Assembly: GCA_019747375.1 (NCBI GenBank)
Contig: JAIEQX010000139.1
Location: 1 to 32,121, forward strand
Origin: Beijerinckiaceae bacterium
GTDB taxonomy: Bacteria; Pseudomonadota; Alphaproteobacteria; Rhizobiales; Beijerinckiaceae
Reading direction: 5' to 3'
Length of the DNA: 32,121 bases
In this document: positions 2,560 to 29,050 of the stretch, piece by piece
Layout: each line of letters starts with the position of its first letter
Numbering within the stretch: position 1 is the stretch's first letter
Program-made: the position numbers and the translations under genes
Notes under the pieces: model-generated
What the model was told of the DNA's origin: nothing
Databases searched by the model: none
What the model saw: the letters and a program-made list of their open reading frames with translations, nothing else

Positions 2560-3645
2560 ATGGTGCGGATGCAGACCGAAGAAAGACGCCAATTGCCCAC
2601 TTCCTTCACGATCAATGGACGATTTTTCTCCCAGGCGGCGTCCGGCGTGCAGCGTTACGCTCAGCAGATCGTGGAGTCGATTGACCGACAGGCGGTTGGC
2701 GATGTCGTGCTGGCTCTTCCTCCGGGGGATGTAAGCCTGCCGCCATTCGGGAAGATCCGGCCCAAGACCCTCGGCGCCTCCAACGGCTACCTTTGGGAGC
2801 AGGTCATGCTGCCCGCTCTCGCCAGGGGGCCTTTGCTGAATCTCTGCAATCTGGGGCCGGTCGTGCGCAGCGACCAGATTGTCTGCATGCATGACGCCAA
2901 TGTCTACACGGACCCGAATTCCTACAGTCGCGCCTTTCAGCTCGCTTACCGGACGCTGCAACCCCTGCTGGCCCGACGCGCGGCGCGCGTGACGACCGTT
3001 TCGAAATTTTCCGCCACGATGCTGGCCAAATACCTGCCCATCAAGGCGACCGACATTCTGGTGCTGCCGAACGGGCACGAACACGTCCATGCCTGGGACG
3101 CCTCGCGCTCGACCATCCTGTCGTCAGGAGCGGCGCGGCCTTTCGTGCTGCTGATTGGCAGCAAGGCCAAACACAAGAATGCGGACCTCGTCCTGTCGCT
3201 GGCCGACGCGCTCGACGAACTCGGGCTCGATATTTACGTCGCCGGCGGACAGGGCCGCATCTTCGCCGCGACCGAGACCCGGGAGCGCGCCAACATCGTG
3301 CGCCTCGGCTTTGTCTCCGACGATGATCTTGCGGCGCTTTATGCGCGCGCATCATGCCTCGTGTTCCCGTCATGGAGCGAGGGCTTCGGGCTCCCCATCG
3401 TCGAGGCCATGGCGCTCGGCTGTCCGGTCATCTCGTCGGATCGCGCCAGCATGCCGGAGGTCGGCGGGGCCGCCGCCCGCTACGCCGCCCCGGATGATCC
3501 GGCCGGCTGGCTCGGCCGAATCCGCGAAATCGCCGGATCCGAGGCTTTGAGGCAGGACATGATTTCCGCCGGGCGGGAGCAGGCCCGGAAATTCTCGTGG
3601 ACCCAGTCCGCCGCGGGGTATCTCGAAGCCCTCGCGGCCATCTGA
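2560..3645 (+). CDS. Glycosyltransferase family 4/1
   Basis: 'FTINGRFFSQAASGVQRYAQQI' N-terminus and 'VFPSWSEGFGLPIVEAMALGCPVISSDRASMPEVGGAAARYAAPDDP' GT4 C-terminal motif. Confidence 0.93.
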   Translation: MVRMQTEERRQLPTSFTINGRFFSQAASGVQRYAQQIVESIDRQAVGDVVLALPPGDVSLPPFGKIRPKTLGASNGYLWEQVMLPALARGPLLNLCNLGPVVRSDQIVCMHDANVYTDPNSYSRAFQLAYRTLQPLLARRAARVTTVSKFSATMLAKYLPIKATDILVLPNGHEHVHAWDASRSTILSSGAARPFVLLIGSKAKHKNADLVLSLADALDELGLDIYVAGGQGRIFAATETRERANIVRLGFVSDDDLAALYARASCLVFPSWSEGFGLPIVEAMALGCPVISSDRASMPEVGGAAARYAAPDDPAGWLGRIREIAGSEALRQDMISAGREQARKFSWTQSAAGYLEALAAI

Positions 3646-3695: not shown

Positions 3696-5117
3696 ATGGA
3701 CATTCAACTGATCGGCCTCCTGGCCTTCGCCTTCGGCCTATCGGCGTTTCGCAATCTCCGTTTCGCGTTTTTCGCCTTCACGATCTCGTCTCTGCTCGGC
3801 TCGTCCGCCGCCGCCATTCTCACCTTCATGGGCGGGGCGAACGTCCAGCCGGCGCATCTGATGCTGGGTTTTCTGACGCTCGGCCTGATGACCCAGGCTG
3901 CGCGGCGCGAAAAATTCGAAATGCCGCGCGAGGGCGTCTGGCTTTCGCTCGCGGTCGGCTACGGGGTGCTGGGCGCCTTCTTCCTCCCGCGACTTTTTGC
4001 GGGTGAAACCTACATCAACGCCATCGGGGTGACTGAATTCGGCTTTGCGTCGATTCCAATTCCGCTCGGTCCGACTTCCGGCAACATCACCCAGTCGGTC
4101 TATTTCGTCGGCAATCTCGTCTGCTTTCTCGTGAGCTACGCTTTTGCGCGCTCGCCCGGCAACATCCGCGTCGCCTGCAACGCCTACATGACCTATTGCG
4201 TGCTCAATGTCGGTTTCGCGCTGGTGGATCTCGCCACTTACGCAACGGGAACCGCGTTCCTGCTCGATTTCATCAGAAACGCCACTTACACCCTGCATCT
4301 CGATACCGAGATCGACGGCCTGAAGCGCATCGTGGGTTCGTTCACCGAAACCTCGTCCTTCTCTTATGCGTCCATCGCCTGCCTGGGTTTCATGGGGCGT
4401 CTCTGGCTCGGCGGCGTGGCGCCTGCGCTCACGCTGACGATTTCGCTGGCGACAATTGCGCTGCTGATCCTGTCGACATCCACGACCGCCTATGTGGCCC
4501 TGCCGATCATGCTTTGCTTCCTGCTGATGACGGGCGGCTTCCGGCTGCTGAACAGCAAGACAAACGCCACGACGCTGCTCTTCGTCGTCATGACGCCCCT
4601 GCTGGCGATCCTGGCCCTGACCACGATCCTGCTGATCCCGTCCGTCTCGGACGCGCTCTATAATTTCATCGACATGTCGATCCTTCGGAAAGGGACGTCC
4701 GCGTCCGGGATCGAGCGGACGCAATGGAACGTCTTCGCGTTTCAGAACTTCATCGAGACCTACGGTCTGGGCGCGGGCGTGGGAAGCGTGCGCGCCTCGA
4801 GCTTCGTCATAGCTGTGCTGGCCAATCTCGGCGTCATTGGCGGCGGGGCTTATCTCATGTTCATCATACTCGTCGTGAGCGGCCAGAAAGCCCCGCGTGA
4901 AACCTATAACGGCGCCGTTCAGGCGGCGGCCCAGACTGCCTGTGTCGGCATGCTGATCGCCGCCACCATCTCGGGCGCCTTGATCGACCTCGGCCTGACC
5001 TTCTTCATCCTGGCGGGCCTTGCGACCGCCGTGAACGAGACCGCCGGCGCGCGAACCGTGGCGCGGCGTCGGCCGCCGCAGGCGGTCGCGGACTACACCC
5101 CTCAGGCGACCGCCTGA
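3696..5117 (+). CDS. Polytopic membrane protein, O-antigen ligase/polysaccharide polymerase-like (ExoQ-like)
   Basis: Roughly 10-12 hydrophobic segments, location between EPS genes, 'YGLGAGVGSVRASSFVIAVLANLGVIGGGAYL' resembling O-antigen ligase/polymerase C-terminal motif. Confidence 0.75.
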   Translation: MDIQLIGLLAFAFGLSAFRNLRFAFFAFTISSLLGSSAAAILTFMGGANVQPAHLMLGFLTLGLMTQAARREKFEMPREGVWLSLAVGYGVLGAFFLPRLFAGETYINAIGVTEFGFASIPIPLGPTSGNITQSVYFVGNLVCFLVSYAFARSPGNIRVACNAYMTYCVLNVGFALVDLATYATGTAFLLDFIRNATYTLHLDTEIDGLKRIVGSFTETSSFSYASIACLGFMGRLWLGGVAPALTLTISLATIALLILSTSTTAYVALPIMLCFLLMTGGFRLLNSKTNATTLLFVVMTPLLAILALTTILLIPSVSDALYNFIDMSILRKGTSASGIERTQWNVFAFQNFIETYGLGAGVGSVRASSFVIAVLANLGVIGGGAYLMFIILVVSGQKAPRETYNGAVQAAAQTACVGMLIAATISGALIDLGLTFFILAGLATAVNETAGARTVARRRPPQAVADYTPQATA

Positions 5118-5409: not shown

Positions 5410-7014
5410 ATGTTGTATCGCGATCCGCCGCTCGACGGTCCCGCATTCGGCGACGACGAACTCGTCAAGGGCCCGCAGCGCAGCGTGCTCCTGATGGCTG
5501 TCGGCGCCATCCGCCGGCGCCTGAAGAGCCTGATCGCGTGGATCATCGGCTGCCTCGCGGCGGCGGCCATCTACATCATGGTCACGCCCGCCGAATTCGC
5601 CGCCACGTCGTTGATCATCCTGGAGCCGCGCCGTCCCGCGTTTCTCACCCAGAACGACGTCGGGCAGCTGCAGCAGAATCTCGACACGCCCCAGATCGAA
5701 AGCCAGGTTCAGATCATCAAGTCCGGCCGCATCGTCAGCGCCGTGATCAAGGAAATGGACCTCGCCTCCGATCCGGATCTGACCAACCCGCGCCGCGGCC
5801 TCATCGCCTGGGTCCGCGACCTCCTGTTCGACGAGGTCGAAAAGCCCGTCACGCTTCCGGTGGCCGTGTTCTCGGAGCGCATCAACGTTCGCCGCGTCGG
5901 CCAGTCGCTCGTTCTGGAGATCAGCGTCCGGGCTTCGACGCCCGAACAATCCGCCGCGCTCACCAACGCCGTGGTCGCCGCATATCTGTACGATCAGGTG
6001 AGTTCCAAGCTGGTCGATACGCGCCGGACCGGCGACTGGCTGCAAAGCCGCATCGAGGATATGCGCAACCAGCAGCAGGCCGCCCTCGCCGCCATGCGGA
6101 CGGGCATCGCCGCCGAAGTCCCCTTCCCGGCCGCCGACGTGCGCATTCTCAACACCGCGACGCCGCCGTCTGGAAAATCCTTCCCCAAGACCACGCTGAT
6201 CATGATCTTCGCCATGACCTTCGCGCTCGTCACCGGCGTCGGGGCGGTCGTCGTCGGCCGTCTCATGGACCGACGCGTCTGGAGCGTCGAGGATATGGCG
6301 GAAACGATCCGCAAGCGCTGCATCACGTCGGTGCCGCGCGTTCGCGGCCTGAAGCTGAAGGGTGGCGCGCGCCGGCCCGTGGCGCTCGAGCTCGCGACCC
6401 AGAAACCCTGGACCAGATTCGCGGAAAGTTTCCGCACCATCCGCAACGCCGTTCTCAACAACGGCCAGTCGGCCCCCCGCACGATCGGCCTCGTCTCCTG
6501 GCGCCATGGCGAGGGCACGACCATGATGTCCGCCAATCTGGCGCACACGCTTGCGGCTTCCGGCGCCTCCGTCGTGCTCGTCGACGCGGACATCCGCAGC
6601 GCCGTGCTGACGAGAACCATGACGCCCGACGCCACGATCGGGCTCGCCGACCTGATCCAGCCCGTCGATGGCGTTCAGCCCGAGCTGATCTCCATCAGCC
6701 GCTCGCTGAACTTTCTGCCCGCCCTGCAGAAGGGCAAGAAGGCCGAGCCGTTCCTGTTCGTCGGATCTCAGGCGGTCCGCGACCTCCTGCAGGATCTCAG
6801 CCGCGACAACATCGTCATCGTGGACATGCCGCCGATGTCGGAGTCCAACGACGCCGTCGCCATGGCGCCGCTCCTCGACGGCGTCATCCTGGTGATCGAA
6901 GCCGGGCGGACCAAGGTCGAGGAGGTCGCCCAGGCGATCGACGCGCTCGAACACGTCAAGACGCATGTGCTCGGCACCGTCATCAACAAGCAGCGCGAAT
7001 TGCCCGGCGCCTGA
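5410..7014 (+). CDS. Polysaccharide co-polymerase (Wzz/ExoP-like) with BY-kinase-like C-terminal domain, degenerate Walker A
   Basis: Wzz-type N-terminal TM, 'PPSGKSFPKTTLIMIFAMTF' second TM, 'GEGTTMMSANLAHTLAASGASVVLVDADIRSA' and 'IVIVDMPPMSESNDAVAMAPLLDGVILVIEAG'. ATG at 5410 is preceded by GGAG; ORF extends to 5374. Confidence 0.88.
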   Translation: MLYRDPPLDGPAFGDDELVKGPQRSVLLMAVGAIRRRLKSLIAWIIGCLAAAAIYIMVTPAEFAATSLIILEPRRPAFLTQNDVGQLQQNLDTPQIESQVQIIKSGRIVSAVIKEMDLASDPDLTNPRRGLIAWVRDLLFDEVEKPVTLPVAVFSERINVRRVGQSLVLEISVRASTPEQSAALTNAVVAAYLYDQVSSKLVDTRRTGDWLQSRIEDMRNQQQAALAAMRTGIAAEVPFPAADVRILNTATPPSGKSFPKTTLIMIFAMTFALVTGVGAVVVGRLMDRRVWSVEDMAETIRKRCITSVPRVRGLKLKGGARRPVALELATQKPWTRFAESFRTIRNAVLNNGQSAPRTIGLVSWRHGEGTTMMSANLAHTLAASGASVVLVDADIRSAVLTRTMTPDATIGLADLIQPVDGVQPELISISRSLNFLPALQKGKKAEPFLFVGSQAVRDLLQDLSRDNIVIVDMPPMSESNDAVAMAPLLDGVILVIEAGRTKVEEVAQAIDALEHVKTHVLGTVINKQRELPGA

Positions 7015-7666: not shown

Positions 7667-8338
7667 GTGACGATCCATAACACGACTGACTACGACACGC
7701 TTCTTGGCCAGGATAGCCAACGCGCCATCGGGGGCAGCGCCAAGCGCGCCTTTGATCTTGTCGCAAGCGTCGCAGCGGCCATTGTCGTCGCTCCGCTCCT
7801 GATCATGCTCAGTCTCCTGATCCTGGTGACCAACGGCGGCCCGGTCACGATCCGGCACCAGCGCGTCGGCAAGGGCGGACGGAAGTTCGGCTGCTTCAAG
7901 TTCCGCACGATGGTGACCAATGGCGATGAAGTCCTGAAGCGCCACCTGGCGGAAAACCCCGCCGCCATGGAAGAATGGACCCGTAACCGCAAGCTCGTCG
8001 TCGACCCCCGCGTGACGCGTCTCGGCCGCATCCTCCGCAAGACCAGCCTTGATGAGCTCCCGCAGCTCTTCAACATCATTGCGGGCGACATGAGCTTTGT
8101 CGGTCCGCGCCCGATCGTCGAGGACGAGATCGTCCGCTACGGCAACGCCTTTGCGGAATACAGCCGCGCCCGTCCCGGCCTGACCGGCCGCTGGCAGATC
8201 AGCGGCCGCAACGACACCGGCTATGACGAGCGCGTCAAGCTCGACCGGGAATATGTGACCAACTGGTCGTTCAGCCGGGATATCGTCATTCTCGTGCTCA
8301 CCATCCCCGCTGTGATCAAGGCCCGGGGCGTCTACTGA
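7667..8338 (+). CDS. Undecaprenyl-phosphate sugar phosphotransferase (ExoY-like priming transferase)
   Basis: GTG start; 'KRAFDLVASVAAAIVVAPLLIMLSLLI', 'CFKFRTMVTNGDEVL', 'VTRLGRILRKTSLDELPQLFNIIAGDMSFVGPRPIVEDEI', 'ARPGLTGRWQISGRNDTGYDERVKLDREYV'. Confidence 0.95.
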   Translation: MTIHNTTDYDTLLGQDSQRAIGGSAKRAFDLVASVAAAIVVAPLLIMLSLLILVTNGGPVTIRHQRVGKGGRKFGCFKFRTMVTNGDEVLKRHLAENPAAMEEWTRNRKLVVDPRVTRLGRILRKTSLDELPQLFNIIAGDMSFVGPRPIVEDEIVRYGNAFAEYSRARPGLTGRWQISGRNDTGYDERVKLDREYVTNWSFSRDIVILVLTIPAVIKARGVY

Positions 8339-8459
8339 CGCCCTCGCGCATTGAAAATAATGCCCTGCTTTATGGGTTTTGGCTTTCGGTTCCGGGCCGT
8401 TTGGCGTTAGGAATCGGACAGCCCCTTCCATTCTTGCAAAGATTCAGCGGTCGACCAGC

Positions 8460-9332
8460 ATGAGAATAGCGATCGGAATTGCGACGATGGGACGCGCGCC
8501 GCTTCTGTCGGAGACGGTGCGGGACCTGAGCCGTCAATCCCACCCCGCCGACAGGATCATCATTTGTGGCGCTTCGCCTGCCGATTATGAGGGCCTGCAG
8601 GGTCTGGACGGCGTCGAGCTTCTGATCAGCGAGCCCGGCTCCACCAAGCAGCGCAACGCCATCATCGACGTGGCGAGCGACTGCGACATCATCCTCTTCC
8701 TGGACGACGACTTTCTGCTCGATGTCGACTATCTGCGCGTTTTCGTCGACGCCTTCGCGAATGATCCCACCATCGTGTCCGCCTCCGGCCGCGTCATCGC
8801 GGACGGCATCAATGGGCCGGGCTTCGATTTCAAGACCGGAATGAGCCTTCTCAACGGCAAGCGTCCGCCGCCGCCGGTTGGCGGGGCCGTCGTGGACATT
8901 CCCTATGGCTACGGCTGCAACATGGCCTTCCGGATGGCGACGCTCAACGGCAACGCCCTGCGCTTCGACGAGAGCCTGCCCCTTTACGCCTGGTATGAGG
9001 ACATCGATCTCATGCAGCGCACGGGCCGGCATGGCCGCGTCGTGCGCCTCATGAATGCGATCGGCGTGCATCTGGGGACGAAAAGAGGCCGCACCTCTGG
9101 CCGGCGCCTCGGTTATTCCCAGGTCGCCAATCCGGTCTATCTCGCCCGCAAGGGCACCTATCCCTGGCGCAGCGCCGTCGAGAGCATCGCCAAGAATTTC
9201 ACCGCAAATCTGGTGAAGTCGATCCGGCCTGAACATTACGTCGACCGGCGCGGTCGCCTGTTCGGCAACCTGCTGGGATTGCTCGACGTCGCGCGGCGCA
9301 CCGACCGTCCCGACAAGATCCTGGAACTCTAG
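8460..9332 (+). CDS. Glycosyltransferase family 2
   Basis: 'RIAIGIATMGRAPLLSETVRDLSRQS', 'GSTKQRNAIIDVASDCDIILFLDDDFLLDVDYL'. ATG at 8460 gives a canonical GT2 N-terminus. Confidence 0.92.
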   Translation: MRIAIGIATMGRAPLLSETVRDLSRQSHPADRIIICGASPADYEGLQGLDGVELLISEPGSTKQRNAIIDVASDCDIILFLDDDFLLDVDYLRVFVDAFANDPTIVSASGRVIADGINGPGFDFKTGMSLLNGKRPPPPVGGAVVDIPYGYGCNMAFRMATLNGNALRFDESLPLYAWYEDIDLMQRTGRHGRVVRLMNAIGVHLGTKRGRTSGRRLGYSQVANPVYLARKGTYPWRSAVESIAKNFTANLVKSIRPEHYVDRRGRLFGNLLGLLDVARRTDRPDKILEL

Positions 9333-9346
9333 AGCGTCCGACGCTC
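9332..9346. other. Small inverted repeat between convergent glycosyltransferase genes
   Basis: GAGCGT-CCG-ACGCTC overlaps both stop codons; no T-tract. Confidence 0.4.
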
Positions 9347-10223
9347 AGGTGTGGAGCCAGACGGGCGGACGGATCGATTGCCCGTCATCCGCACAACGCC
9401 AGCCCGCATACAGACCCATCGCGCGTGCAAAGCGCAGCCGGGCGTGGGCCGGGTGCAATTGAAGCAGCGCCACGAGCCCACCCGTCATCGCCCGACCGAT
9501 CCACCCCGCCACCCGCGCCTGACTCTCGTCATGCTTGCGCAGAACGCGCCCCATGCCGAGCGCATAACCCCAGTTCTTGGCCACGACGCCTGGAACGTTT
9601 GCGGGCGGCGCCAGCGGGTGAAACACTCTGATTTCGGGCGCATAGATCAATTTGTGTCCGTGCAGGGCCGCGCGGAGCAGCAGGTCCGTTTCCTCGCCCG
9701 ACTGGAACGGCCCCCGGCTCCCCAGTCCCAGATCCTCGTCGAAAAAGCCGACGGTCTCGAACACTTCGCGCCGAAGAAACATCGAGGTCGAAACGCCGCT
9801 GTGCCAGACGTTTTCACGCGTGATCGGCCCCGCGTTGCGACGCAGGCCGCCGGCGGAAACATTCCCGTTGAGATCCGTGCATCGGCCCGTCACGCCCATG
9901 ATGTCGCGGTCCGAGGAGAATGCAGCGTCCACGTTGGCGAGGAGATCCTGACTGTACCAGGCGTCATCGTCCGGGAATGCGAAGATCTCGCCCCGGGCGA
10001 CCGCAATGCCGACGTTGCGCGCCTTTGACAGGCCCTTTTCGCTCCGCAGATGCTGGATCGGAAACTTGTCGGAATAGTTCGCGACGATCGACTTCACCAG
10101 ATCGGCCGGCCCCTGATCGACCACGATGACTTCGAAGTCACGAAACGCCTGATCGACGAAAGACGCGAAACACCGGTCAAGTTCGGCCCGTCCGAGGGTC
10201 GCCACGATCAAGCTGAAACGCAT
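9345..10223 (-). CDS. Glycosyltransferase family 2
   Basis: 'MRFSLIVATLGRAELDRCFASFVDQAFRDFEVIVVDQGP', 'EKGLSKARNVGIAVARGEIFAFPDDDAWY'. Start chosen at the internal Met; ORF track begins at 10238. Confidence 0.93.
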   Translation of the reverse strand: MRFSLIVATLGRAELDRCFASFVDQAFRDFEVIVVDQGPADLVKSIVANYSDKFPIQHLRSEKGLSKARNVGIAVARGEIFAFPDDDAWYSQDLLANVDAAFSSDRDIMGVTGRCTDLNGNVSAGGLRRNAGPITRENVWHSGVSTSMFLRREVFETVGFFDEDLGLGSRGPFQSGEETDLLLRAALHGHKLIYAPEIRVFHPLAPPANVPGVVAKNWGYALGMGRVLRKHDESQARVAGWIGRAMTGGLVALLQLHPAHARLRFARAMGLYAGWRCADDGQSIRPPVWLHT

Positions 10224-10297
10224 TTCTTCCCCCCACACACACGCATCAGCTGCAGGCGAACTTCAGTCAGCCCCGTTCAAGCCTGCGACGCGCTTAC

Positions 10298-11341
10298 TCA
10301 GCCCACCTTCGGAAGCCTCAATCTGGCTCTGCCGTCTTTAAGCGCCGAAGGAATACCAGACATGTATGCTCTGACGATAGAAGATGATTGAGCTTTGTTT
10401 ACAATCATAATTCGCGGCAGATGCAGCGGACGATCGAGGTCCGTGGCTCTCAGAACGCGGCTCTCGGTGGAGAATGCGGTCGAAAACCCGGCCTCCGCGA
10501 CCAGAGCGGCCGCATGCGCCCCCACCTCATGAGGCTGCCCGAAAGGATAGGCGAACAGCGAGGCCGAGACGCCCGAAGCTTCGAGAATGCGCGAGCGACA
10601 GCCGGCGATCTCCGTCCGGGCCTCGTCTGCGCTGAGGCGGCTGAGCAACGGGTGGGTCATGGTATGGCCGCCGAATGCGCCCAGGCCGCTCGCGGCCATT
10701 TCCCGCACCATGCCCCAATCGAGCGCGAAATCGTAAGCAGCCTCGCGTGCGAGGTCCGAGGGATTGCTCGCCACAAGATCTTCGGTGGCGTCGCGAACCT
10801 GCGATGGCGTCATCTGGCGAAACAGGGCGTCGAGCCGGCGAAGGACAAGGGCTTTGTCCCTCAGACTGGACGTTTCATGACAAGCCCCGAGGAAATCGAC
10901 CCGGTCGTTGACGCAGACCACATGTTCCAGCACATGCCACCACATCGGATGCGTGCGATCCAGAAGGCCCGTCGTCAGAAAGATCGTGAAGGGTACGTCA
11001 TGCGCCCGGAAAACCGGATACGCGACCTCGTAATTGTCGCGGTAGCCGTCGTCGAGCGTAAAGGCGACAAAGGGCTTCGGGCTTCCCGCGCGCAGACGCG
11101 TCAGCGCCTCGGCCACCGACACACAAGCGATCCTGCGGGCTTTCAGGTCCAGAATGAGGGACGTGAGAAAGTCTGCCGAAACAGACATGCCGCCATGCGG
11201 AAGGATGCGGGTCTTTTCATTCGTGACGCCGTGGAGGCAGAGGACAGCCTGCCCCCGCAAGGCGAGCAGGTCGGCGAGCCGCCCGATCGCGGTCATCGAG
11301 AGCCGGAAGGGCAGCTCAGACATTGCATCCGCGATGGCCAT
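10298..11341 (-). CDS. Polysaccharide deacetylase (NodB-homology) family protein
   Basis: 'FVAFTLDDGYRDNYEVAYPVFRAHDVPFTIFLTTG', 'GGHTMTHPLLSRLS', 'FAYPFG' motifs. Confidence 0.93.
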   Translation of the reverse strand: MAIADAMSELPFRLSMTAIGRLADLLALRGQAVLCLHGVTNEKTRILPHGGMSVSADFLTSLILDLKARRIACVSVAEALTRLRAGSPKPFVAFTLDDGYRDNYEVAYPVFRAHDVPFTIFLTTGLLDRTHPMWWHVLEHVVCVNDRVDFLGACHETSSLRDKALVLRRLDALFRQMTPSQVRDATEDLVASNPSDLAREAAYDFALDWGMVREMAASGLGAFGGHTMTHPLLSRLSADEARTEIAGCRSRILEASGVSASLFAYPFGQPHEVGAHAAALVAEAGFSTAFSTESRVLRATDLDRPLHLPRIMIVNKAQSSSIVRAYMSGIPSALKDGRARLRLPKVG

Positions 11342-13576: not shown

Positions 13577-14353
13577 GTGCGCATTTCGACATGGAACGTC
13601 AATTCGGTTCGCCAGCGGCTCGAGCACCTGCTCGGCTATCTCAAGGAGGTCGAGCCCGACGTCGTTTGCCTGCAGGAACTCAAGTGCACGGACGACGCCT
13701 TTCCGCGGCTCGAAATCGAAAGCGCCGGCTACAATGTCGCCGTCCATGGCCAGAAGGGGTTCAACGGCGTCGCCATCCTGTCGAAACTGCCGCTCGAAAC
13801 GCGCTCCGGGCTGCCCGGCGACGATGAAGACACGCACGCGCGCTACATCGAGGCGACCGTGCCCTATCAAAACGGCGTCCTGCGCGTCGCCTCGATCTAT
13901 CTGCCCAACGGCAATCCTGTCGGTACGGACAAATACGTCTACAAGCTCGCCTGGATGGACCGCCTCATCGCGCATTCGCGCGAATTGCTGAAGCTGGAGG
14001 AGCCGCTGGTCCTGGCGGGCGACTACAATGTCATCCCGGGGCCGCGCGACGCCTACGACCCGGCCGCCTGGGCCAATGACGCGCTGTTTTTGCCCCAGAC
14101 GCGCGAGAAGTTCCGCACGCTGCTCAATCTCGGCCTGACGGAGGCGCTGCGGTCGGTCACCGATGACGCAGGCCTTTACACCTTCTGGGATTACCAGGCG
14201 GGCGCCTGGCAGAAGAACCTCGGCATCCGCATCGATCATCTGCTGCTGTCGCCGCAGGCGGCGGACCGCCTCCAGTCGGTCGCGATCGACAAGCACATGC
14301 GCGCGATGGACAAGCCGTCCGACCATGTTCCCATCCGGATCGACCTCGCGTGA
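13577..14353 (+). CDS. xthA: Exodeoxyribonuclease III
   Basis: 'RISTWNVNSVRQRLEHLLGYLKEVEPDVVCLQELKCTDDAFP', 'GQKGFNGVAILSK', 'LAGDYNVIPGPRDAYDP', 'RIDHLLLSPQAADRL', 'KPSDHVPIRIDL'. GTG at 13577. Confidence 0.95.
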   Translation: MRISTWNVNSVRQRLEHLLGYLKEVEPDVVCLQELKCTDDAFPRLEIESAGYNVAVHGQKGFNGVAILSKLPLETRSGLPGDDEDTHARYIEATVPYQNGVLRVASIYLPNGNPVGTDKYVYKLAWMDRLIAHSRELLKLEEPLVLAGDYNVIPGPRDAYDPAAWANDALFLPQTREKFRTLLNLGLTEALRSVTDDAGLYTFWDYQAGAWQKNLGIRIDHLLLSPQAADRLQSVAIDKHMRAMDKPSDHVPIRIDLA

Positions 14354-16530
14354 CGCAGGCGTCGGGCGCCCGCGCGCGACGGATGACGGCCTGGCAAGCC
14401 AGGCTCGCCAATATCTTGACCGTGGCGATTCCGGTCGTTGTCGGCCTCTTCCTGACCATCGGAGATACCGCGCCCGTCGCGCAGATCCGCAACCTGCTCT
14501 TCGATCACTATCAACGCCTCGCGCCGCGACCCTGGAGCCCGGACCTGCCGGTCCGCATCATCGACATCGACGACGCCAGTCTCGCCCGCTACGGACAATG
14601 GCCGTGGCCGCGCGATACGATCGCCCACCTGACGCGCAAACTCGCCGAGGCGAAGCCCGCCGCCGTCGTGTTCGACATCCTCTTCGCCGAGGAGGACCGT
14701 TTCGCGCCGGAGCGTCTCGTGCGACGCCTCCCGGCCTCGCCGGAACGCGACGCCTTGGAGCGGAAACTCACTCCGACGCACGGCGATCCCTTCGCCGAAG
14801 CGCTGCGCGACGCTCCGTCCGTTCTGGCGCTCGCGCTGACCAACCAGCCCGCTCCCTTTGCGGGCTTCACGCCGAAATCCGGCTTCGTCGAACTGGGCGA
14901 TCGCGCCGCCCCCGCCCTGACGTCCTTCCCGCGCGCGATCCTTCCGCTTCCCGGATTGAGCGATGCGGCGCGTGGCCTCGGGGCCATCAATTACCTGCCT
15001 GATCGCGACCTGATCGTCCGCAACGTGCCGCTCGTCTTCGCCATGACGCGTGACGGCGCAGACATTCTCGTTCCCTCGCTCGACGCCGAGGCGCTGCGCG
15101 TCGCCCAGGGCGCCGACACGATCATCCTGAAGTCGACGCGCGCCGCCGGCGAACGCTCCTTCTCGTCGCGCAACGCCATCGTGGAAGCCAGGATCGGCGA
15201 CGCCCTGATCGCCACCCAGAAGGACGGCGCGGTGCGCGTGCGCTTCGCCGGCCATCAGGCCGCGCGCTACATTCCGGCCTGGCGCGTCATCGAGGGCGAG
15301 GCGCCCGCAAGCGAGATCCAGGACCGCATCCTGTTCGTCGGCGCCAGCGCCGCCGCATTGTCGGACCTGCGCTCCACCCCCATCGACACGGCGGTTCCGG
15401 GTGTCGAGATCCATGCCGAAATGATCGAGCATGTCGCCAGCGGCTCGCGCCTCACGCGGCTCGACTACGCCGAAGGCCTCGAAGCGGTCGCGCTCCTCGT
15501 GCTGGCGATCGTGACCGGCGCGGCGGCCGCGAAACTGCGGCCGATGCGCGCCGCGCTCATCACCGGCGCGCTACTCCTTGCGCTCGGCGCGGGCTCCTGG
15601 CTCGCCTTCCGCCATGCCGATCTGCTGTTCGATCCGCTGGTCCCCGGCGCCGCCGCGCTGGCGTCCTTCGGCGCCATGACGATGCGCGTCTTCCGCCGCA
15701 CCGAGCGCGATCGCCGGCAGGTGCGCGACGCCTTTTCGCGCTATCTCGCGCCCGCGGTGGTCGAGCGCCTCGCGGCCGATCCGTCGCGCCTGCGTCTGGG
15801 CGGCGAGGCGCGCGACCTCACCATCCTGTTCTGCGACGCGCGCGACTTCACGGCCCGCGCCGAAAAGCTCGACGCCGAAAGCGTCATCGCCTTTCTCAAC
15901 GCCTTGCACACCCCGCTCACCGCTGCGGTTCTGGCGCAGTCGGGCACCATCGACAAATATGTCGGCGACGGGCTCATGGCCTTCTGGAACGCGCCGCTCG
16001 ACGTCGACGACCACGCCTCGCGCGCCTGCGCGGCGGCCCTCGCGATGATCGAAGCGATCCCCGCCATCGACGCCCGTCTCGCCGAAGCGTCGCAGGGCCG
16101 GAAGGACATCCCGCCCCTCGTCTCCATCGGCATCGGCATCAACACCGGCGAGGCCTTCGTGGGCAATATGGGCTCGGAGCAGCGTTTCGATTATTCCGTC
16201 GTCGGCGACAATGTGAACATCGCCTCGCGGCTCGAGGCCGAAACCAAGCGCCTGCATGCGCCCATCGTGGTGTCGGAAGCAACCGCCCGCGCCGCGCAGG
16301 GCTTCCTGTTCCTCGATCTCGGCGACATCGCGCTGCGCGGCAAGACCGAGCGCGTCCGCGCCTTCGCGCTGCACGGGCGCGCCACCGGACAGGATGCGGA
16401 GTTTCACCAATTCGCCGAGACGCACGCCCGCGCGCTGGACGGCGACGCCGGGGCGCTGGCCGCCGCGCGCGCCCACCCGCTGGGCCGGGCCTATGCCGGC
16501 GTCTACGGCAGCATGGAAGCAGACGCCTGA
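14350..16530 (+). CDS. CHASE2 domain-containing class III adenylate/guanylate cyclase
   Basis: N-terminal CHASE2-like 'PVRIIDIDDASLARYGQWPWPRDTIAHLTRKLAEAKPAAVVFDILFAEEDR', three TM segments, cyclase domain 'DLTILFCDARDFTARAEKL...DKYVGDGLMAFW...YSVVGDNVNIASRLE' with metal Asps intact. Confidence 0.95.
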   Translation: MTQASGARARRMTAWQARLANILTVAIPVVVGLFLTIGDTAPVAQIRNLLFDHYQRLAPRPWSPDLPVRIIDIDDASLARYGQWPWPRDTIAHLTRKLAEAKPAAVVFDILFAEEDRFAPERLVRRLPASPERDALERKLTPTHGDPFAEALRDAPSVLALALTNQPAPFAGFTPKSGFVELGDRAAPALTSFPRAILPLPGLSDAARGLGAINYLPDRDLIVRNVPLVFAMTRDGADILVPSLDAEALRVAQGADTIILKSTRAAGERSFSSRNAIVEARIGDALIATQKDGAVRVRFAGHQAARYIPAWRVIEGEAPASEIQDRILFVGASAAALSDLRSTPIDTAVPGVEIHAEMIEHVASGSRLTRLDYAEGLEAVALLVLAIVTGAAAAKLRPMRAALITGALLLALGAGSWLAFRHADLLFDPLVPGAAALASFGAMTMRVFRRTERDRRQVRDAFSRYLAPAVVERLAADPSRLRLGGEARDLTILFCDARDFTARAEKLDAESVIAFLNALHTPLTAAVLAQSGTIDKYVGDGLMAFWNAPLDVDDHASRACAAALAMIEAIPAIDARLAEASQGRKDIPPLVSIGIGINTGEAFVGNMGSEQRFDYSVVGDNVNIASRLEAETKRLHAPIVVSEATARAAQGFLFLDLGDIALRGKTERVRAFALHGRATGQDAEFHQFAETHARALDGDAGALAAARAHPLGRAYAGVYGSMEADA

Positions 16531-16648: not shown

Positions 16649-17338
16649 ATGCAGATCAAGTTCCACACCGGCGCCTCGCCGGACGCCCGCCCCGAAACCC
16701 GCGACGTGCTTGTGTCCCAGGCCATCGTGGCCGGCTGGACCGGACGCGACCGCGTCGCGCTTGAGAAGCACATCAAGGAGCTCGAGGAACTGGGCGTCGC
16801 CCGCCCCGCCTCCACGCCCATCTATTACCGGGTCTCCGCCGCGCGCGTGACGACCGATACGAAGATCCAGACCACCGGCGCTGCGTCCAGCGGCGAAGTC
16901 GAATTCGTTCTGGCCCAATGGGGCGGCGAAATGTGGGTGGGCGTGGGCTCCGACCACACCGACCGCGAGGTCGAGACCTACAATGTCACGGTGTCGAAGC
17001 AGATGTGCGAAAAGCCCGTGGCGGGCGAGGTCTGGCGCTTCGCCGACGTCGCCGGTCACTGGGACAGGATCATCCTGCGCTCCTACATTTTCGAGAACGG
17101 CGCGCGCGTCCTCTACCAGGAGGGAACCGTCAATGCGATGCTCGATCCCGCCGTCCTGATCGAGGGCTATGCGGGCAAGAAGGCGCTCGACGAGAATACG
17201 ATCATGCTCTGCGGCACCTTCGCCGCAAAAGGCGGCATACGCCCCGCAGACGTTTTCGAATTCGAGATGGAGGATCCGGTTCTGGGCCGCACGATCCGCC
17301 ACGGCTACGAGCTCGACAAGCTGCCGGTGCTGGGATGA
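16649..17338 (+). CDS. DUF2848 family protein with FAH-fold-like motifs
   Basis: Sequence looks like DUF2848; ExE ('GEVEF'), 'VGSDHTDR', 'SKQM...KPV' and C-terminal 'LCGTFAAKGGIRPADVFEFEMEDPVLGRTIRHGYEL' resemble fumarylacetoacetase-fold motifs. ORF track start is GTG at 16637. Confidence 0.75.
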   Translation: MQIKFHTGASPDARPETRDVLVSQAIVAGWTGRDRVALEKHIKELEELGVARPASTPIYYRVSAARVTTDTKIQTTGAASSGEVEFVLAQWGGEMWVGVGSDHTDREVETYNVTVSKQMCEKPVAGEVWRFADVAGHWDRIILRSYIFENGARVLYQEGTVNAMLDPAVLIEGYAGKKALDENTIMLCGTFAAKGGIRPADVFEFEMEDPVLGRTIRHGYELDKLPVLG

Positions 17339-18078
17339 GCGACAAGGCGGCGCTGCGCGAAGTCGAGCACCGGCCCTTGCCGGCGACGCCTGCGCCGCAG
17401 TCGTTTCCGTCGCCGCCGCCCTCCCCCAACGTCGTCTCCATGCCGGAGCCGCAATCGCTGCGCGACGCCGCCTATGAGGCGATCAAGCACCGCATCATCA
17501 CCTGCGCGTTCCGCCCTGGCGAATATATCAACGAGGCTTTCGTGTCGGCGACGCTCGGCATCGGCCGCACGCCCGTGCATCAGGCCATCGACCGCCTGAT
17601 GCTCGAAGGCATGCTGGACGTCATTCCCCGCAAGGGCGTGATCGTCAAGCCGGTCAGCCTCGACGAGATCATGCAGATCGTCGAGGTGCGTCTGCTCAAC
17701 GAAGGCTATTGCGTGCGGCTCGCCGCCGACCGGGCCGACAATGACGAGATCGCGCATCTCACCGACATCCTGGCGCGCGCGGCGCAATGGATCGACGCGC
17801 GCAACAGCGAGCAGTTGATGCGGCTCGACCGCGAATTCCACTGGGTGCTCGCCCGCGCCTCCAAGAACCCCGTGCTTGGCGACTGGCTCGCCAAGCTGCA
17901 CGACCGCTCCCTGCGCTTCTGGTTCATCTCGCTCAACAAGGCGGGCCATCACGAAAGCGTGCAGGCGCAGCACGAAGCCATTCTGGCGGCGATCCGCGCG
18001 AGAGACCCCGATGGCGCCGAGCAGGCCATGCGCGCGCACATCGACGCCTTCCGCGAGAATCTGACGCACAACATGTAA
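17335..18078 (+). CDS. GntR family transcriptional regulator, FCD (FadR) subfamily
   Basis: 'SLRDAAYEAIKHRIITCAFRPGEYINEAFVSATLGIGRTPVHQAIDRLMLEGMLDVIPRKGVIVKPVS' wHTH and FCD-type C-terminus. ATGA overlap with the upstream gene. Confidence 0.95.
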   Translation: MSDKAALREVEHRPLPATPAPQSFPSPPPSPNVVSMPEPQSLRDAAYEAIKHRIITCAFRPGEYINEAFVSATLGIGRTPVHQAIDRLMLEGMLDVIPRKGVIVKPVSLDEIMQIVEVRLLNEGYCVRLAADRADNDEIAHLTDILARAAQWIDARNSEQLMRLDREFHWVLARASKNPVLGDWLAKLHDRSLRFWFISLNKAGHHESVQAQHEAILAAIRARDPDGAEQAMRAHIDAFRENLTHNM

Positions 18079-18112
18079 TTCGGCGCGCCAAACGCGCAGC
18101 CGCATCGAGAGG

Positions 18113-19351
18113 ATGAAGACGATGAAGACGGACCAGAGAGTTCTGATCTCCGGCGGCGGGCCGGTCGGCCTGTTCTGCGCCCTCCTGCTCGGCCGCCAGG
18201 GCGTTCCCGTGCGACTGTTCGACATCAACAGCGAATTGCAGGACGATCCGCGCGCCGCCACCACGCATCCCGCCACGCTGGAAGTGCTCGGCCAGGCAGG
18301 GCTCGTCGAGGACATGGCGCTGCAGGGCCTCACCGCGCCGATCTTCCAGTTCTGGGACCGCCCGTCCGGCAAGCTCGTGGCGGAATTCGATCTCGCGCTG
18401 CTGGCGAAGGACACGAAATATCCGTTCGTCATCCAGTGCGAGCAGTTCAAGACCGCGCATATCATCATGAAGCGGCTGGTCGACATGCCCAACGTCGAAA
18501 TCATGTTCAGCCATGAAGTCGTCGCGGTCGAGCAGACAGCCGACAAGGTGACCGTGACGGTGCGCACCAAGGACGGCGAGGAGAAGCACGAAGGCGCCTA
18601 TCTGATCGGCGCGGACGGCGGCCGCAGCACCGTGCGCAAACAGGCGGAAATCCCCTTCGAGGGATTCACCTGGGCGGAGCGCTTCCTCGTGCTCACCACG
18701 CCGTTCGATTTCAACGCCCATCTCGGCTATTGCTATCGCAGCTATTTCGCCGACCCGGACGAATGGTGCAATTGCTTCAAGGTCGCGGCCGACGGGCCTC
18801 CGGGCCTGTGGCGCACCGTCTTCCCGACGGACCCGAACGCCAGCGAAGCCGAAATCATGAGCGACGAGGCCGTTCAGGCGCGCCTGCAGAAATTCTTCCC
18901 CGGCTCGCGGCCCTACGACATCGTCCATCGCAATCTCTACACGACGCATCAGCGCGTCGCCGCAACCTTCCGCAAGGGGCGCGTGCTTCTGGCCGGCGAC
19001 TCCGCGCACGTCAACAATTCCATCGGCGGCATGGGCCTGAACGGCGGTCTGCAGGACGCCGCAAACCTCTCCGAGAAGCTGGCGCAGGTTCTCGCCGGCG
19101 CGCCCGACAGCCTGCTCGATCTCTATTCGCTGCAGCGCCGCACGGTCTCCATCGAATTCGTGCAGGCGCAGTCGATCGCCAACAAGAAGCAGCTTGAAAC
19201 CAAGGAGCCGGTGGCCCGCAAGGCCACGCTGGACGAACTCGCCGCCACCGCGGCCGATCCCGTCAAGGCGCGCCAATACCTGCTGCGCAGCTCCATGCTG
19301 AGCATGCAGTCGCGCGCCGCCTCCATCACGCTGGAAGAGGCCGCGGCATGA
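18113..19351 (+). CDS. FAD-dependent aromatic monooxygenase (PHBH-type)
   Basis: 'VLISGGGPVGLFCALLLGRQGVPVRLFD' (GxGxxG), 'LIGADGGRSTVRKQ' (DG), 'GRVLLAGDSAHVNNSIGGMGLNGGLQDAANLSEKL' (GD). Confidence 0.93.
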   Translation: MKTMKTDQRVLISGGGPVGLFCALLLGRQGVPVRLFDINSELQDDPRAATTHPATLEVLGQAGLVEDMALQGLTAPIFQFWDRPSGKLVAEFDLALLAKDTKYPFVIQCEQFKTAHIIMKRLVDMPNVEIMFSHEVVAVEQTADKVTVTVRTKDGEEKHEGAYLIGADGGRSTVRKQAEIPFEGFTWAERFLVLTTPFDFNAHLGYCYRSYFADPDEWCNCFKVAADGPPGLWRTVFPTDPNASEAEIMSDEAVQARLQKFFPGSRPYDIVHRNLYTTHQRVAATFRKGRVLLAGDSAHVNNSIGGMGLNGGLQDAANLSEKLAQVLAGAPDSLLDLYSLQRRTVSIEFVQAQSIANKKQLETKEPVARKATLDELAATAADPVKARQYLLRSSMLSMQSRAASITLEEAAA

Positions 19352-20706
19352 GCCGCCCTCATCCCCGCTCCTTCGCCCGCGCTCTCGGCGATTTCGCCGC
19401 CGGGACGGACACGCCGCGCGACTTTCTCGAACGCTGCATCGACGAGATCGAAGCGCGCGACCCCGAGGTGAAAGCCTTCACGGCGATCAACCTCGAAGCG
19501 GCGCGCGACGCCGCCGACGCTTCGACGCAACGCTGGCATGAGGGCGCGCCCCTGTCGCCGATCGACGGCATGCCGATCGGCGTCAAGGACGTCATCGAAA
19601 CCGCCGACATGCCGACCGGCATGGGCTCGGGTCTCTTCGACGGCTACAGCCCCGGTCACGATTCCGCCTCCGTACACGCGCTGCGCGAAGCCGGCGCCAT
19701 CATCGTCGCCAAGACCGTCACGACGGAATTCGCGGCCACGCGTCCCGGCCCGACGCGCAATCCGCATGATCTCGCGCGCACGCCGGGCGGCTCCAGCAGC
19801 GGCTCCGCCGCGGCGGTGGGCTCCGGCATGCTGGCGGGCGCGCTCGGCACGCAGGTGGTCGGCTCCATTCTGCGTCCCGCGAGCTATTGCGGCTGCGTCG
19901 GCTTCAAGCCGTCGCTCGGCGGCATCAATCGCGGCGGCAGCCATGATTACATGAGCCAGAGCTGTCAGGGCGTGCTGGCCGCGACGCTGGAAGACACCTG
20001 GCAGATCGCGCGCGAGATCGTCGTGCGGGCCGGCGGCGATCCGGGCATGCCGGGCCTGATCGGTCCGGCCATCATGCCGGACGCAAGGACGCCCGCAACG
20101 CTGGCGTTTCTTGAAACCACCGGTTGGGATGTCGCCGTTCCGGAAGCGCGCGACGCCATGCTGCGCGTGCTGGACGATCTGCGCGCCGCAGGCGTGAAGA
20201 TCGTGACGCGCCACGATGACGCGCTCGTCGCCGCGCTCGAAGACGTCATCCCCGAAGTGCTGCCGCTGACGCGCAGGATCAACGCATGGGAGTCGCGCTG
20301 GCCGCTGAACACCTATGTCGATCGTGACGCCTCGAAACTCAGCCAGGGCATGATCGACCGCCTGCGCGAAGCCGAAGCCATGACGGTCGAGGGCTATCGC
20401 GCCGACATCGCGCGCCGCGAAGAGATCCGCGCCATTCACGCCAAAGTCTCCGCCGTGGCCGAAGCCTGCATCACCCTTTCGGCGCCCGACGCCGCGCCGC
20501 TCGGCATCGAGGCGACCGGCAATCCGGTCTTCGCCGTGCCGTGCTCGCTGCTGGGCGTCCCTGCCCTGTCGCTGCCGCTGCTGCGCGTCGGCCAGATGCC
20601 GCTCGGCGTGCAGACCATCGGCTATCGGGACGAGGATGCGGCGCTGTTCGCACTTTCGGCCGCCATCGTAGACATCATCGCCCCCGCCAATCAGAACGTA
20701 GCGTAA
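19348..20706 (+). CDS. Amidase signature family hydrolase
   Basis: 'MPIGVKDVIETADMPTGMGS' (catalytic Lys), 'GGSSSGSAAAVGSG' (cis-Ser), 'GTQVVGSILRPASYCGCVGFKP' (nucleophile Ser). Confidence 0.95.
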   Translation: MSRPHPRSFARALGDFAAGTDTPRDFLERCIDEIEARDPEVKAFTAINLEAARDAADASTQRWHEGAPLSPIDGMPIGVKDVIETADMPTGMGSGLFDGYSPGHDSASVHALREAGAIIVAKTVTTEFAATRPGPTRNPHDLARTPGGSSSGSAAAVGSGMLAGALGTQVVGSILRPASYCGCVGFKPSLGGINRGGSHDYMSQSCQGVLAATLEDTWQIAREIVVRAGGDPGMPGLIGPAIMPDARTPATLAFLETTGWDVAVPEARDAMLRVLDDLRAAGVKIVTRHDDALVAALEDVIPEVLPLTRRINAWESRWPLNTYVDRDASKLSQGMIDRLREAEAMTVEGYRADIARREEIRAIHAKVSAVAEACITLSAPDAAPLGIEATGNPVFAVPCSLLGVPALSLPLLRVGQMPLGVQTIGYRDEDAALFALSAAIVDIIAPANQNVA

Positions 20707-20716
20707 AGGCCAAATT

Positions 20717-22396
20717 ATGCAGGATCAGGCTCATCCCTTGCCGGCTTCCCTCGGCCGCTACATGGACGCGGACGAGGCGAAACACGCCTATCCCGACCTC
20801 CATGAACACGTGCTGGAGCTCGCGCGCCGCGGCTTGTTGATCGTCGTCGACGAACCGATCAACAAGGACACGGAAATGCATCCGCTCGTCCGCTGGCAAT
20901 ATCGCGGCGGCATTCCCGAGAAGGATCGCAAGGCGTTTCTCTTCACCAATCCGACCGACAGCAAGGGCCGCACATACGACACGGCGGTTCTGGTGGCCGG
21001 CCTCGCAGCCACGCCGGACGTCTATCGCACCGGCTTCGGCAAGCCGCTCGACAAGATCGGCGAGACCTGGATCAAGGCGATCGGCAATCCGATCGAGCCG
21101 CGCGTCGTTACCGCAGCGCCTTGCCAGGACATTGTCACCGAGGGCGATGCGCTCGACGCCGACGGCGCCGCGCTCGACGGCATCCCGGTGCCGATCTCGA
21201 CGCCCGGCTGGGACAATGCGCCCTATCTGTCCGCCGGTCATTACATCACCAAGGACCCCGACACCGGCGTCCAGAACATCGGCAATTATCGCGGACAGCT
21301 GAAATCCCCGCGTCGGCTGGGCATGAATCCGTCCGTCGAGCTGCGCGCCGGCATCTACGCGCACTGGCTGAAATACAAGAAGCTCGGCAAGCCCATGCCC
21401 TGCGCGGTCGTCCTCGGCTGTCCGCCCGCCGTGTCCTACACGTCGGTGCAGAAGCTCGCGGAAGGCGTCGACGAAATGGCCGTGGCGGGCGGACTTGCGG
21501 GCGCGCCCATCGACGTGGTCAAGGCGAAGACGGTCGACCTCATGGTGCCGGCCCAGGCCGAAATCGTCATCGAAGGCTATATCGACACGCAGTTCCTCGA
21601 GCCCGAGGCGCCGTTCGGCGAATCCCACGGCTACGTGAACCTGCAGGAATATAACGCCTTCATGGACGTCACGGCGATCACGCGGCGCAAGAACCCCATC
21701 ATCCCGTCCTTCATCAGCCAGGTGACGCCGAGCGAATCGAGCGTCATCCGCAAGGCCGCGATGGAGCCGGTCTATCTCAACCACCTGCGCAACGCGCTCG
21801 GCATCAAGGGCGTCAAGCGCGTCTCCATGCACGAGCCGCTGACGAGCCTCTACGCCGTCATCGCCATCGTGTTCGAGCGCGGCGTGCTGGAAACGGAAGT
21901 CTGGCGCGCGCTCTATGCGGCCTCGACCCTGCATCGCTTCGCCGGCAAATGGGTGATCGCGATCGACGAGGACATCGACCCCGAGAACGCCGATGCGCTG
22001 CTCTGGGCCATGTCCTATCGCTGCCAGCCGCAGCACGATCTCAAGATGCTCGACCGCAAGGACGCGGGCCATGGTCCGCGCGGACCGCGCGACAATGGCG
22101 AGAGCGCGTCCGTGCTGATCAACGCGCTGCTCAAGGGCGATTTCGCGCCCGTGGCTCTGCCCAAGCGCGAGTTCATGGAAAACGCCAAGGTGATCTGGGA
22201 GCGGCTCGGCCTGCCCGAACTGAAGCCCGAGACGCCGTGGCACGGCTACGATCTGGGCGTCTGGCCGGACAATCTCGCACGCCAGGCCGAGATGGCGACG
22301 CGCAGCGAATATTTCGAGTTCTCGGACGAACTCATCGCCGGCCGACGCTCCGACGTCGCCATGAACGATCCCGTGCCGAGGCCCGACGAAAAGTAA
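20717..22396 (+). CDS. UbiD family (prFMN-dependent) decarboxylase
   Basis: 'EIVIEGYIDTQFLEPEAPFGESHGYVNLQEYNAFMDVTAITRRKNPI' UbiD motif, 'VWRALYAASTLHRFAGKWVIAIDEDIDPENADALLWAMSYRCQP'. Confidence 0.94.
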   Translation: MQDQAHPLPASLGRYMDADEAKHAYPDLHEHVLELARRGLLIVVDEPINKDTEMHPLVRWQYRGGIPEKDRKAFLFTNPTDSKGRTYDTAVLVAGLAATPDVYRTGFGKPLDKIGETWIKAIGNPIEPRVVTAAPCQDIVTEGDALDADGAALDGIPVPISTPGWDNAPYLSAGHYITKDPDTGVQNIGNYRGQLKSPRRLGMNPSVELRAGIYAHWLKYKKLGKPMPCAVVLGCPPAVSYTSVQKLAEGVDEMAVAGGLAGAPIDVVKAKTVDLMVPAQAEIVIEGYIDTQFLEPEAPFGESHGYVNLQEYNAFMDVTAITRRKNPIIPSFISQVTPSESSVIRKAAMEPVYLNHLRNALGIKGVKRVSMHEPLTSLYAVIAIVFERGVLETEVWRALYAASTLHRFAGKWVIAIDEDIDPENADALLWAMSYRCQPQHDLKMLDRKDAGHGPRGPRDNGESASVLINALLKGDFAPVALPKREFMENAKVIWERLGLPELKPETPWHGYDLGVWPDNLARQAEMATRSEYFEFSDELIAGRRSDVAMNDPVPRPDEK

Positions 22397-22433
22397 TTCC
22401 TGTTCCGTCACACAAACCAGAGAGGCGCCAAAC

Positions 22434-22814
22434 ATGGCCATCAACAAGCTGCACGACGAATTCAAGACGCTCGACATGAGCGCCGGCTGGGAAGTTCCCG
22501 CCGGCTATCCGGCGGGCATCCAGCAGAAGATCCTGTCGGGCGCGCTCGACGAAGAGAACCGCAAGGGCAGCCGCACGCGGCTGCTGAAATTCATTCCCGG
22601 CACATACACGACCAAGCCGTTCGTGCATGAATATTGGGAAGAAGTGTTCCTGGTGTCCGGCGACCTGACGGTCGGCAACGACGAGCAGGGCAATGGCGGC
22701 GAATCCTTCAAGCCGTTCACCTACGCCTGCCGCCCGCCCGGCGCCTTCCATGGTCCCTTCAAGTCCGAAGAGGGCTGCCTGCTGCTCGAAATTCATTATT
22801 TCGATCCGGCCTGA
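22434..22814 (+). CDS. Single-domain cupin protein
   Basis: 'PFVHEYWEEVFLVSGDLTVG' and 'YACRPPGAFHGPFKSEEGCLLLEIHYF' match cupin motifs 1 and 2, with the first His of motif 1 replaced. Confidence 0.85.
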   Translation: MAINKLHDEFKTLDMSAGWEVPAGYPAGIQQKILSGALDEENRKGSRTRLLKFIPGTYTTKPFVHEYWEEVFLVSGDLTVGNDEQGNGGESFKPFTYACRPPGAFHGPFKSEEGCLLLEIHYFDPA

Positions 22815-22839
22815 TAGTTCGACAGCCGCGGAGGCGATC

Positions 22840-24180: not shown

Positions 24181-24182
24181 AA

Positions 24183-24422
24183 TCAGGCCTCGGCGAGGTC
24201 GAAGGTTTCCTGCAGCTCGGTGAGCTTCATCTTGAGCGGAGCCCATTTCCGGCCCACGCTGTGGTCGGGATGGACCCGCGCGAGCTGCCAGGTCCGGTCA
24301 TGACGGTCGCGCGGAATCGGACGGACCTCGATGCGCTCCAGCGTCTCGTATCCCGGCGCGCTCCGAAGCGTTTCGAGGCAAACCTTTTCAAGAGCGACGC
24401 GGTCCAGGATCTTCTTTTGCAT
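24183..24422 (-). CDS. Hypothetical small protein (79 aa)
   Basis: 'MQKKILDRVALEKVCLETLRSAPGYETLERIEVRPIPRDRHDRTWQLARVHPDHSVGRKWAPLKMKLTELQETFDLAEA' looks protein-like; internal Met chosen over 24557. Confidence 0.65.
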   Translation of the reverse strand: MQKKILDRVALEKVCLETLRSAPGYETLERIEVRPIPRDRHDRTWQLARVHPDHSVGRKWAPLKMKLTELQETFDLAEA

Positions 24423-24687
24423 ATACGCCTCCGTGCCGCCCCCGTCGGGACATGACTGTTCGTGTCGCGAACAGGCGAGAGGCGCCATGCAGGCGCCTGG
24501 TCGGCAAATTGTGTTGAACCGGCGGCGCGACATCCACATCACGCCTCGCCTCGTCAACTCGTGGCGAAGGGCTTGGTTCCATGCCGTACGGATGCAGCTC
24601 CGCGTGGGGCCGCAACGAATGGCGGGCCGATTGGCTGCATGGGGCTGGAAGTTTCGACCCGCATCCGCGAAAGCGCGGGCCCGGCCA

Positions 24688-24716
24688 TAAAAAAAGGGCC
24701 CCTTGTAAGGGACCCT
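24688..24716 (-). terminator. Rho-independent terminator downstream of the cold-shock gene
   Basis: Minus strand GGGTCCCTTACAAGGGGCCC followed by TTTTTTT: 8-bp stem (one G-T pair), TACA loop, T-tract. Confidence 0.88.
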
Positions 24717-24772
24717 CGGAAACCAGACGACGGGCGCGGTTATGATTCCGCAATCGTCCCGATTGGTGCAGA

Positions 24773-26598: not shown

Positions 26599-26714
26599 CG
26601 CCCGCGGGCCATTGCCGCCTGTCGGCCGAAACCGTAGATTGCGCTCGTTCCGTCGGATGCGCCCCGGCGGAGCCATCGTCTCAGCGATGAAAGAGCGCAA
26701 CGGGAGTAGACGAC

Positions 26715-27746: not shown

Positions 27747-27753
27747 GCGTCGG

Positions 27754-29046: not shown

Positions 29047-29050
29047 TCCT

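Follow-up and report, generated by a model that had tools for sequence, protein, structure and literature searches.

Described co-polymerases with altered kinase domains

E. coli cannot make capsule without the helical bundle of the co-polymerase Wzc, and the kinase/phosphatase cycle is regarded as necessary too. Blocking phosphorylation through the K540M mutation gives a homogeneous, unphosphorylated and stable Wzc octamer, while removal of the helical bundle leaves octamers and kinase activity in place, and no capsule is produced (PMC8285477). Part of what keeps the octamer together is the Tyr tail, which sits in the active site of the neighbouring subunit (PMC8285477).

In PssP2 of Rhizobium leguminosarum (586 aa), the periplasmic region is short and neither a Tyr cluster nor any recognised Walker motif is present; the protein was predicted to be kinase-inactive (PMC4182512). 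A pssP2 mutant with a partial deletion of the C-terminal domain produces more EPS, in longer chains, which indicates that such C-terminal domains matter (PMC5748678). Four fused PCP-2/BY-pseudokinases (SMc01795, Mlr8439, BCETI_6000729 and VV1_2305) are named, after Cuthbertson 2009, in a passage of the paper on EcpK; there, EcpK and HfsB are proposed as scaffold pseudokinases that act independently of phosphorylation (PMC12004946). On the export side, OPX proteins (outer-membrane polysaccharide export) of the ExoF type, which carry a helical domain of the MFP type, were described in alphaproteobacteria in 2010, and that paper draws no link between the OPX helix and the state of the co-polymerase (PMC2850547).

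The window analysed here, that is, the whole stretch of 32,121 nucleotides, is an entire contig of a metagenome-assembled genome that is 88% complete. It encodes a polysaccharide co-polymerase of 534 aa with a BY-pseudokinase domain, and an ExoF-type OPX 3.2 kb away. Judging from the sequences, we consider it probable that this protein serves a Wzx/Wzy-type exopolysaccharide pathway as the co-polymerase of the inner membrane and that its cytoplasmic BY-kinase domain acts as a pseudokinase scaffold, a contact with the OPX being the weaker part of this reading.

The closest published kind is PssP2 together with the fused PCP-2/BY-pseudokinases, so the lysine-less, tail-less form is already known; new here are how far the clade extends, the fact that Lys was lost repeatedly once the tail had gone, and the constant pairing with an ExoF-type OPX. 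PssP2, whose co-polymerase role was shown genetically, shares with the window protein a Wzc-like topology, a short periplasmic region (a large gap relative to PssP) and the absence of a Tyr cluster. However, all three Walker motifs (A, A' and B) are reported as missing from it, whereas A' and B persist in the window protein, which has lost mainly the Lys; both this likeness and that to the four fused proteins, which also join a co-polymerase and a degenerate BY-kinase domain in one chain, are drawn from descriptions. EcpK/EpsV of Myxococcus xanthus and HfsB/HfsA of Caulobacter resemble the putative system of the window as phosphorylation-independent PCP-2 systems with a BY-pseudokinase, but their pseudokinase is a separate protein, while that of the window is fused and its periplasmic part is much shorter; compared with EcpK, Walker A' and B are present in the window protein only. 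ExoP of Sinorhizobium meliloti (786 aa) occupies the same pathway position, together with ExoF, a homologue of the window OPX. Unlike the window protein, ExoP has the Lys (DEGKS), five Tyr in its tail and a coiled coil.

The co-polymerase and its gene cluster

The co-polymerase gene lies at 5410-7014 (+), with its stop at 7014 and an alternative in-frame ATG at 5374; the start at 5410 is matched by the first residue of a 70%-identical sister (L034). The product has Pfam matches to Wzz (1.5e-6), GNVR (1e-4) and ParA/AAA_31, an NCBIfam match to eps_transp_fam (5e-37, below the cut-off), and sequence matches to the structures of CapB, BceF, VpsO and Wzc. Its layout is that of PCP-2a, namely a Wzz domain, two TM helices and a C-terminal BY-kinase fold in a single chain; the cytoplasmic P-loop domain (residues 330-530) sets it apart from PCP-1 (Wzz), and the absence of catalytic residues and of a Tyr tail from the BY-kinase fold makes it a BY-pseudokinase co-polymerase. 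An AlphaFold2 model built with only the sister sequence added reached a pLDDT of 35, below usable quality.

The predicted TM helices correspond to the hydrophobic stretches LIAWIIGCLAAAAIYIMV (residues 41-58; 5530-5583, +) and TTLIMIFAMTFALVTGVGAVVVGR (residues 262-285; 6193-6264, +). The periplasmic part between them (5584-6192, +) had been estimated at about 210 aa and comes to about 203 aa, against 383-411 aa in 20 long relatives. As had been proposed, it lacks the long coiled coil: alignment with 43 short and the 20 long relatives shows that an insert of about 177 aa is absent.

The Walker A loop, SWRHGEGTTMMSANLA (6496-6543, +), lacks its Lys. The replacement by Thr named in the original prediction is borne out, since Thr370 (ACG, 6517-6519) occupies the column that holds the Lys in long BY-kinases. 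In the profile alignment, Thr370 stands opposite the Met of the Wzc K540M structures, which is the mutated residue (PMC8285477). The usual P-loop had been given as GEGKS/TT; its Lys is indeed constant, but the first Gly varies (NEGK, KEGK and DEGK occur in long members), the constant element being E-G-K-[ST]. Walker A' (VVLVDAD, 6571-6591, +) and Walker B (IVIVDMPP, 6811-6834, +) are both retained, as predicted. The C-terminus, INKQRELPGA, has no Tyr among its last 11 residues, so the Tyr-rich tail is missing as well. In these respects the window protein resembles both Wzc mutants together, K540M and the bundle-less form.

The gene stands in a cluster for exopolysaccharide synthesis. Upstream lie an Acyltransferase_3 protein, possibly a decorating enzyme (8-916, +; Pfam 3e-24), the OPX gene (923-2248, -), a GT4 glycosyltransferase (2560-3645, +; Pfam 6e-22) and a polytopic membrane protein (3696-5117, +). 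The latter matches no family and is probably the Wzy polymerase, being kept near the co-polymerase in L034. Downstream follow an initiating phosphoglycosyltransferase with a WbaP-like catalytic domain (7667-8338, +; Pfam 1.4e-59, NCBIfam WbaP 3.7e-88) and, by Pfam, two GT2 glycosyltransferases (8379-9332, +; 9345-10238, -) and a polysaccharide deacetylase (10298-11341, -). The sister locus L034 shares the Wzy, co-polymerase, sugar transferase, GT2 and deacetylase genes. No flippase was found in the window. As to a cognate Wzb, the two low-molecular-weight phosphatase matches of the genome sit on other contigs, one of them beside an arsenite-efflux-like gene, and neither is a clear partner.

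Beyond the cluster, a CHASE2 and adenylate cyclase protein adjoins it (14350-16530, +). The region 17300-30200 contains FAD monooxygenase, amidase-like and UbiD-family decarboxylase genes and TctC-like binding proteins; it resembles an aromatic-acid catabolic block and is unrelated to the cluster. At 30180-32039 (-) lies a malto-oligosyltrehalose trehalohydrolase (TreZ), which scores above the cut-off. On contig C310 (L002) of the same genome there is a second co-polymerase, with a coiled coil, and the contig ends before the kinase domain.

Extent of the short clade and order of loss

Relatives were sought in 199 family genomes, 398 order genomes and 397 family genomes, the last by profile, and the family and order searches yielded about 40 full-length short relatives. 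Class-wide and phylum-wide samples gave no short-type genomes beyond the order, with only the best three candidates per genome scored, so that weak cases may escape. Plasmid records, on the other hand, hold further short members in Rhizobium etli, R. tropici and Paracoccus. The Paracoccus plasmid member is short, lies outside the order and has Cys at the Lys position, and the idea of an order-restricted type is thereby ruled out.

The alignment set consists of 43 short, 4 intermediate and 20 long proteins, with periplasmic lengths of 199-235, 250-291 and 383-411 aa, respectively. The 43 short proteins form a tail-less clade, nearly all from one order. The original prediction had called for a survey of the lysine-less loop in this clade: Lys is absent from 35 of the 43 short members and present in the other 8, in 3 of 4 intermediate and in all 20 long proteins, and it is replaced by Ala, Arg, Thr, Cys, Val, Asn, Ser or Ile. 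At least two Tyr near the C-terminus occur in 19/20 long proteins and, among the short ones, only in the aberrant L075 (two Tyr in a seven-residue end). In two short members, L075 and L083, the P-loop is gone entirely. Lys-bearing close orthologs, which would have spoken for a sequence error or a recent mutation, were not found within the genus; the closest relatives that carry the Lys share about 35% identity. Sequencing error or chance as the origin of Thr370 is ruled out because the congeners are Lys-less too, the same-genus relatives L034/L049 and L064 carrying Ala. The Lys-less, tail-less state is thus an inherited and lasting form, common to many relatives.

A tree was built without the P-loop columns by a quick method, with SH-aLRT support only. 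The short proteins form one group (97-98), in which the window protein, L049 and L064, all of one genus, make up a clade with support 100 and carry Thr, Ala and Ala, respectively, at the Lys position. Their neighbours L050, L077, L084 and L085 keep the Lys and have no Tyr tail (support of the joint clade 90-94). As the window's lineage adjoins these tail-less, Lys-bearing members, loss of the Lys came after that of the tail and the coiled coil in this lineage. The Lys state changes at least five times on the best tree, or three times if only starred branches are trusted; the position of L075 and L056, both long-branch rows, is uncertain. With this graded series (Lys without tail, no Lys, no loop), the order in which the parts disappeared can be put to the test. 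Since eight short relatives keep the Lys without a tail, this residue may serve a role besides tail phosphorylation.

Could the kinase domain simply be decaying and functionally irrelevant, with only the Wzz-like periplasmic part at work? For pairs of the three congeners, dN/dS is 0.25-0.36 for the kinase domain and 0.09-0.15 for the membrane and periplasmic part, values that are rough because synonymous sites are near saturation in the deeper pairs. The higher ratio of the kinase domain, the many different residues found in place of the Lys and the extreme loss in L075 and L083 fit decay. However, the ratio is well below 1, the length of the domain is kept across 43 diverged proteins, Walker B Asp (38/43), Pro474 (43/43) and Arg342 (35/43) are conserved, and truncation of the PssP2 C-terminal domain changes EPS, all of which makes decay very unlikely. 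The kinase-like domain is under purifying selection and is less constrained than the rest of the protein.

Another reading keeps a nucleotide in play. Because Walker A', Walker B and the P-loop glycines persist, the domain may still bind nucleotide; it might bind ATP, and perhaps slowly hydrolyse it, via another basic residue such as Arg365, and so be regulated by nucleotide in a manner loosely resembling MinD-type P-loops, whose signature Lys is displaced. Arg365 has the spacing of the MinD signature Lys, the Asp residues of Walker A' and Walker B and the P-loop Gly are largely retained, and a basic residue occurs at 365 in 12/36 Lys-less rows versus 1/31 Lys-bearing ones (Fisher p 0.002, uncorrected for descent). 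Phylogenetically independent pairs, however, give no association of a basic 365 with loss of Lys, the sister L049 has Thr there, and L075 and L083 have no P-loop at all. Compensation for the lost Lys by Arg365 was rejected on this ground, being enriched yet not independent of descent, and we regard the ATP-binding reading as unlikely.

Phosphorylation or activation of the co-polymerase in trans, by a separate active BY-kinase of the same genome, is highly improbable. A BY-kinase-like P-loop protein with an intact GVGKS exists (L038, contig C138), but it is encoded on another contig beside a membrane-protein gene of its own, and the window protein offers no Tyr tail as phosphate acceptor. L038 is a stand-alone protein that itself has no Tyr tail, and the ORF after it is a polytopic, Wzy-like one.

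A phosphorylation-independent scaffold would be the simplest account of the window protein, and one that the sequence supports well. The designation pseudokinase-type chain-length regulator likewise appears to be the best reading, given that catalytic Lys, acceptor tail and helical bundle are absent, that their loss dates far back and extends to relatives, and that fold motifs are under selection. The co-polymerase presumably does not autophosphorylate, and its assembly would therefore not be driven by a cycle of phosphorylation and dephosphorylation. The pseudokinase domain may instead form a structural ring beneath the membrane cage, comparable to Wzc K540M, which is still octameric, and help the periplasmic Wzz-like ring to hold and pace the polymerase. 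Since the tail partly holds the Wzc octamer, its absence might weaken, not lock, the ring of the window protein. The ExxRxxR motif, the oligomerisation motif of BY-kinases, is present as ESFRTIR (6424-6444, +); in the alignment its Arg342 is found in 35/43 short and 20/20 long proteins, while Glu339 is kept in 18/20 long and only 9/43 short ones, a point against the scaffold ring.

Partnership with ExoF-type OPX proteins

What the original prediction overlooked was the extent of the state across a whole clade, the published precedents (PssP2 and the fused PCP-2/BY-pseudokinases) and the neighbouring OPX of the coiled-coil type. This protein of 441 aa combines Poly_export (Pfam 5.7e-15) and SLBB with a long MFP/HlyD-like helical region (TIGR01843 HlyD, 3.7e-18 over residues 171-362), as in the alphaproteobacterial proteins described earlier (PMC2850547), and is 38-39% identical to S. 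meliloti ExoF across residues 33-414. A heptad scan places the HlyD-like hairpin at residues 178-363 (1160-1717, -), and a single-sequence AF2 model, of low confidence (pLDDT about 68-73), has helices at 212-288 and 299-363.

An OPX lies within the fetched region at 34 of the 43 short-clade loci and is of the ExoF type in every case; with a 35th, about 10 kb away in the same genome (L078), all 35 loci with an OPX in reach have this type. The same is true of L087, L105, L109, L111 and L112, the five tail-less proteins of intermediate or long type for which an OPX is in reach, whereas 8 of 9 tail-bearing long co-polymerases with a classified OPX have a Wza-like one (two SLBB, no coiled coil), the ninth being ExoP with ExoF. 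In our sample, a short co-polymerase always goes with an ExoF-type OPX, but the converse fails: in a sample picked by OPX alone, the ExoF type also stands beside bipartite and coiled-coil co-polymerases. Coiled-coil co-polymerases with an ExoF-type OPX include ExoP, L087 and L129-L132. A strict swap of the coiled coil between the two partners is thereby rejected, and the hairpin alone does not account for the shortening. Moreover, the OPX label changes only about two times on the tree, so that the pairing comes close to a single historical event and is no statistical proof.

Contact with the outer-membrane exporter could run through the ExoF-type OPX, whose HlyD-like hairpin might replace the missing periplasmic helices; we propose such a bridge, and a transfer of the coiled coil's role from the co-polymerase to the OPX, as hypotheses only, since the tree explains the pairs by about two changes. 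A broader scenario is tentative and rather doubtful: in alphaproteobacterial systems with an ExoF-type OPX, the hairpin would have taken over periplasmic bridging, which made the coiled coil, and then the Tyr tail and kinase Lys, dispensable, and in the resulting phosphorylation-independent clade the OPX partner, not a kinase cycle, would set assembly. Set against the requirements held for E. coli, this family has dropped bundle, tail and Lys, yet it remains in polysaccharide clusters. The short clade is natural material for asking what the kinase cycle is for and whether an exporter can supply the bridge.

Two further arrangements were observed at loci with ExoF-type OPX genes. In L065, L067, L068 and L069, a second, Wzz-only co-polymerase-like ORF of about 330 aa (e.g., L067:2972-3976, +) adjoins and slightly overlaps the ExoF-type OPX gene, and the main co-polymerase carries Cys at the Lys position. 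In L130 (11504-14863, -) and L131 (4866-7952, +), ORFs of 1029-1120 aa, measured from stop to stop, combine a coiled coil and a kinase-like region with an odd, Tyr-poor C-terminus.
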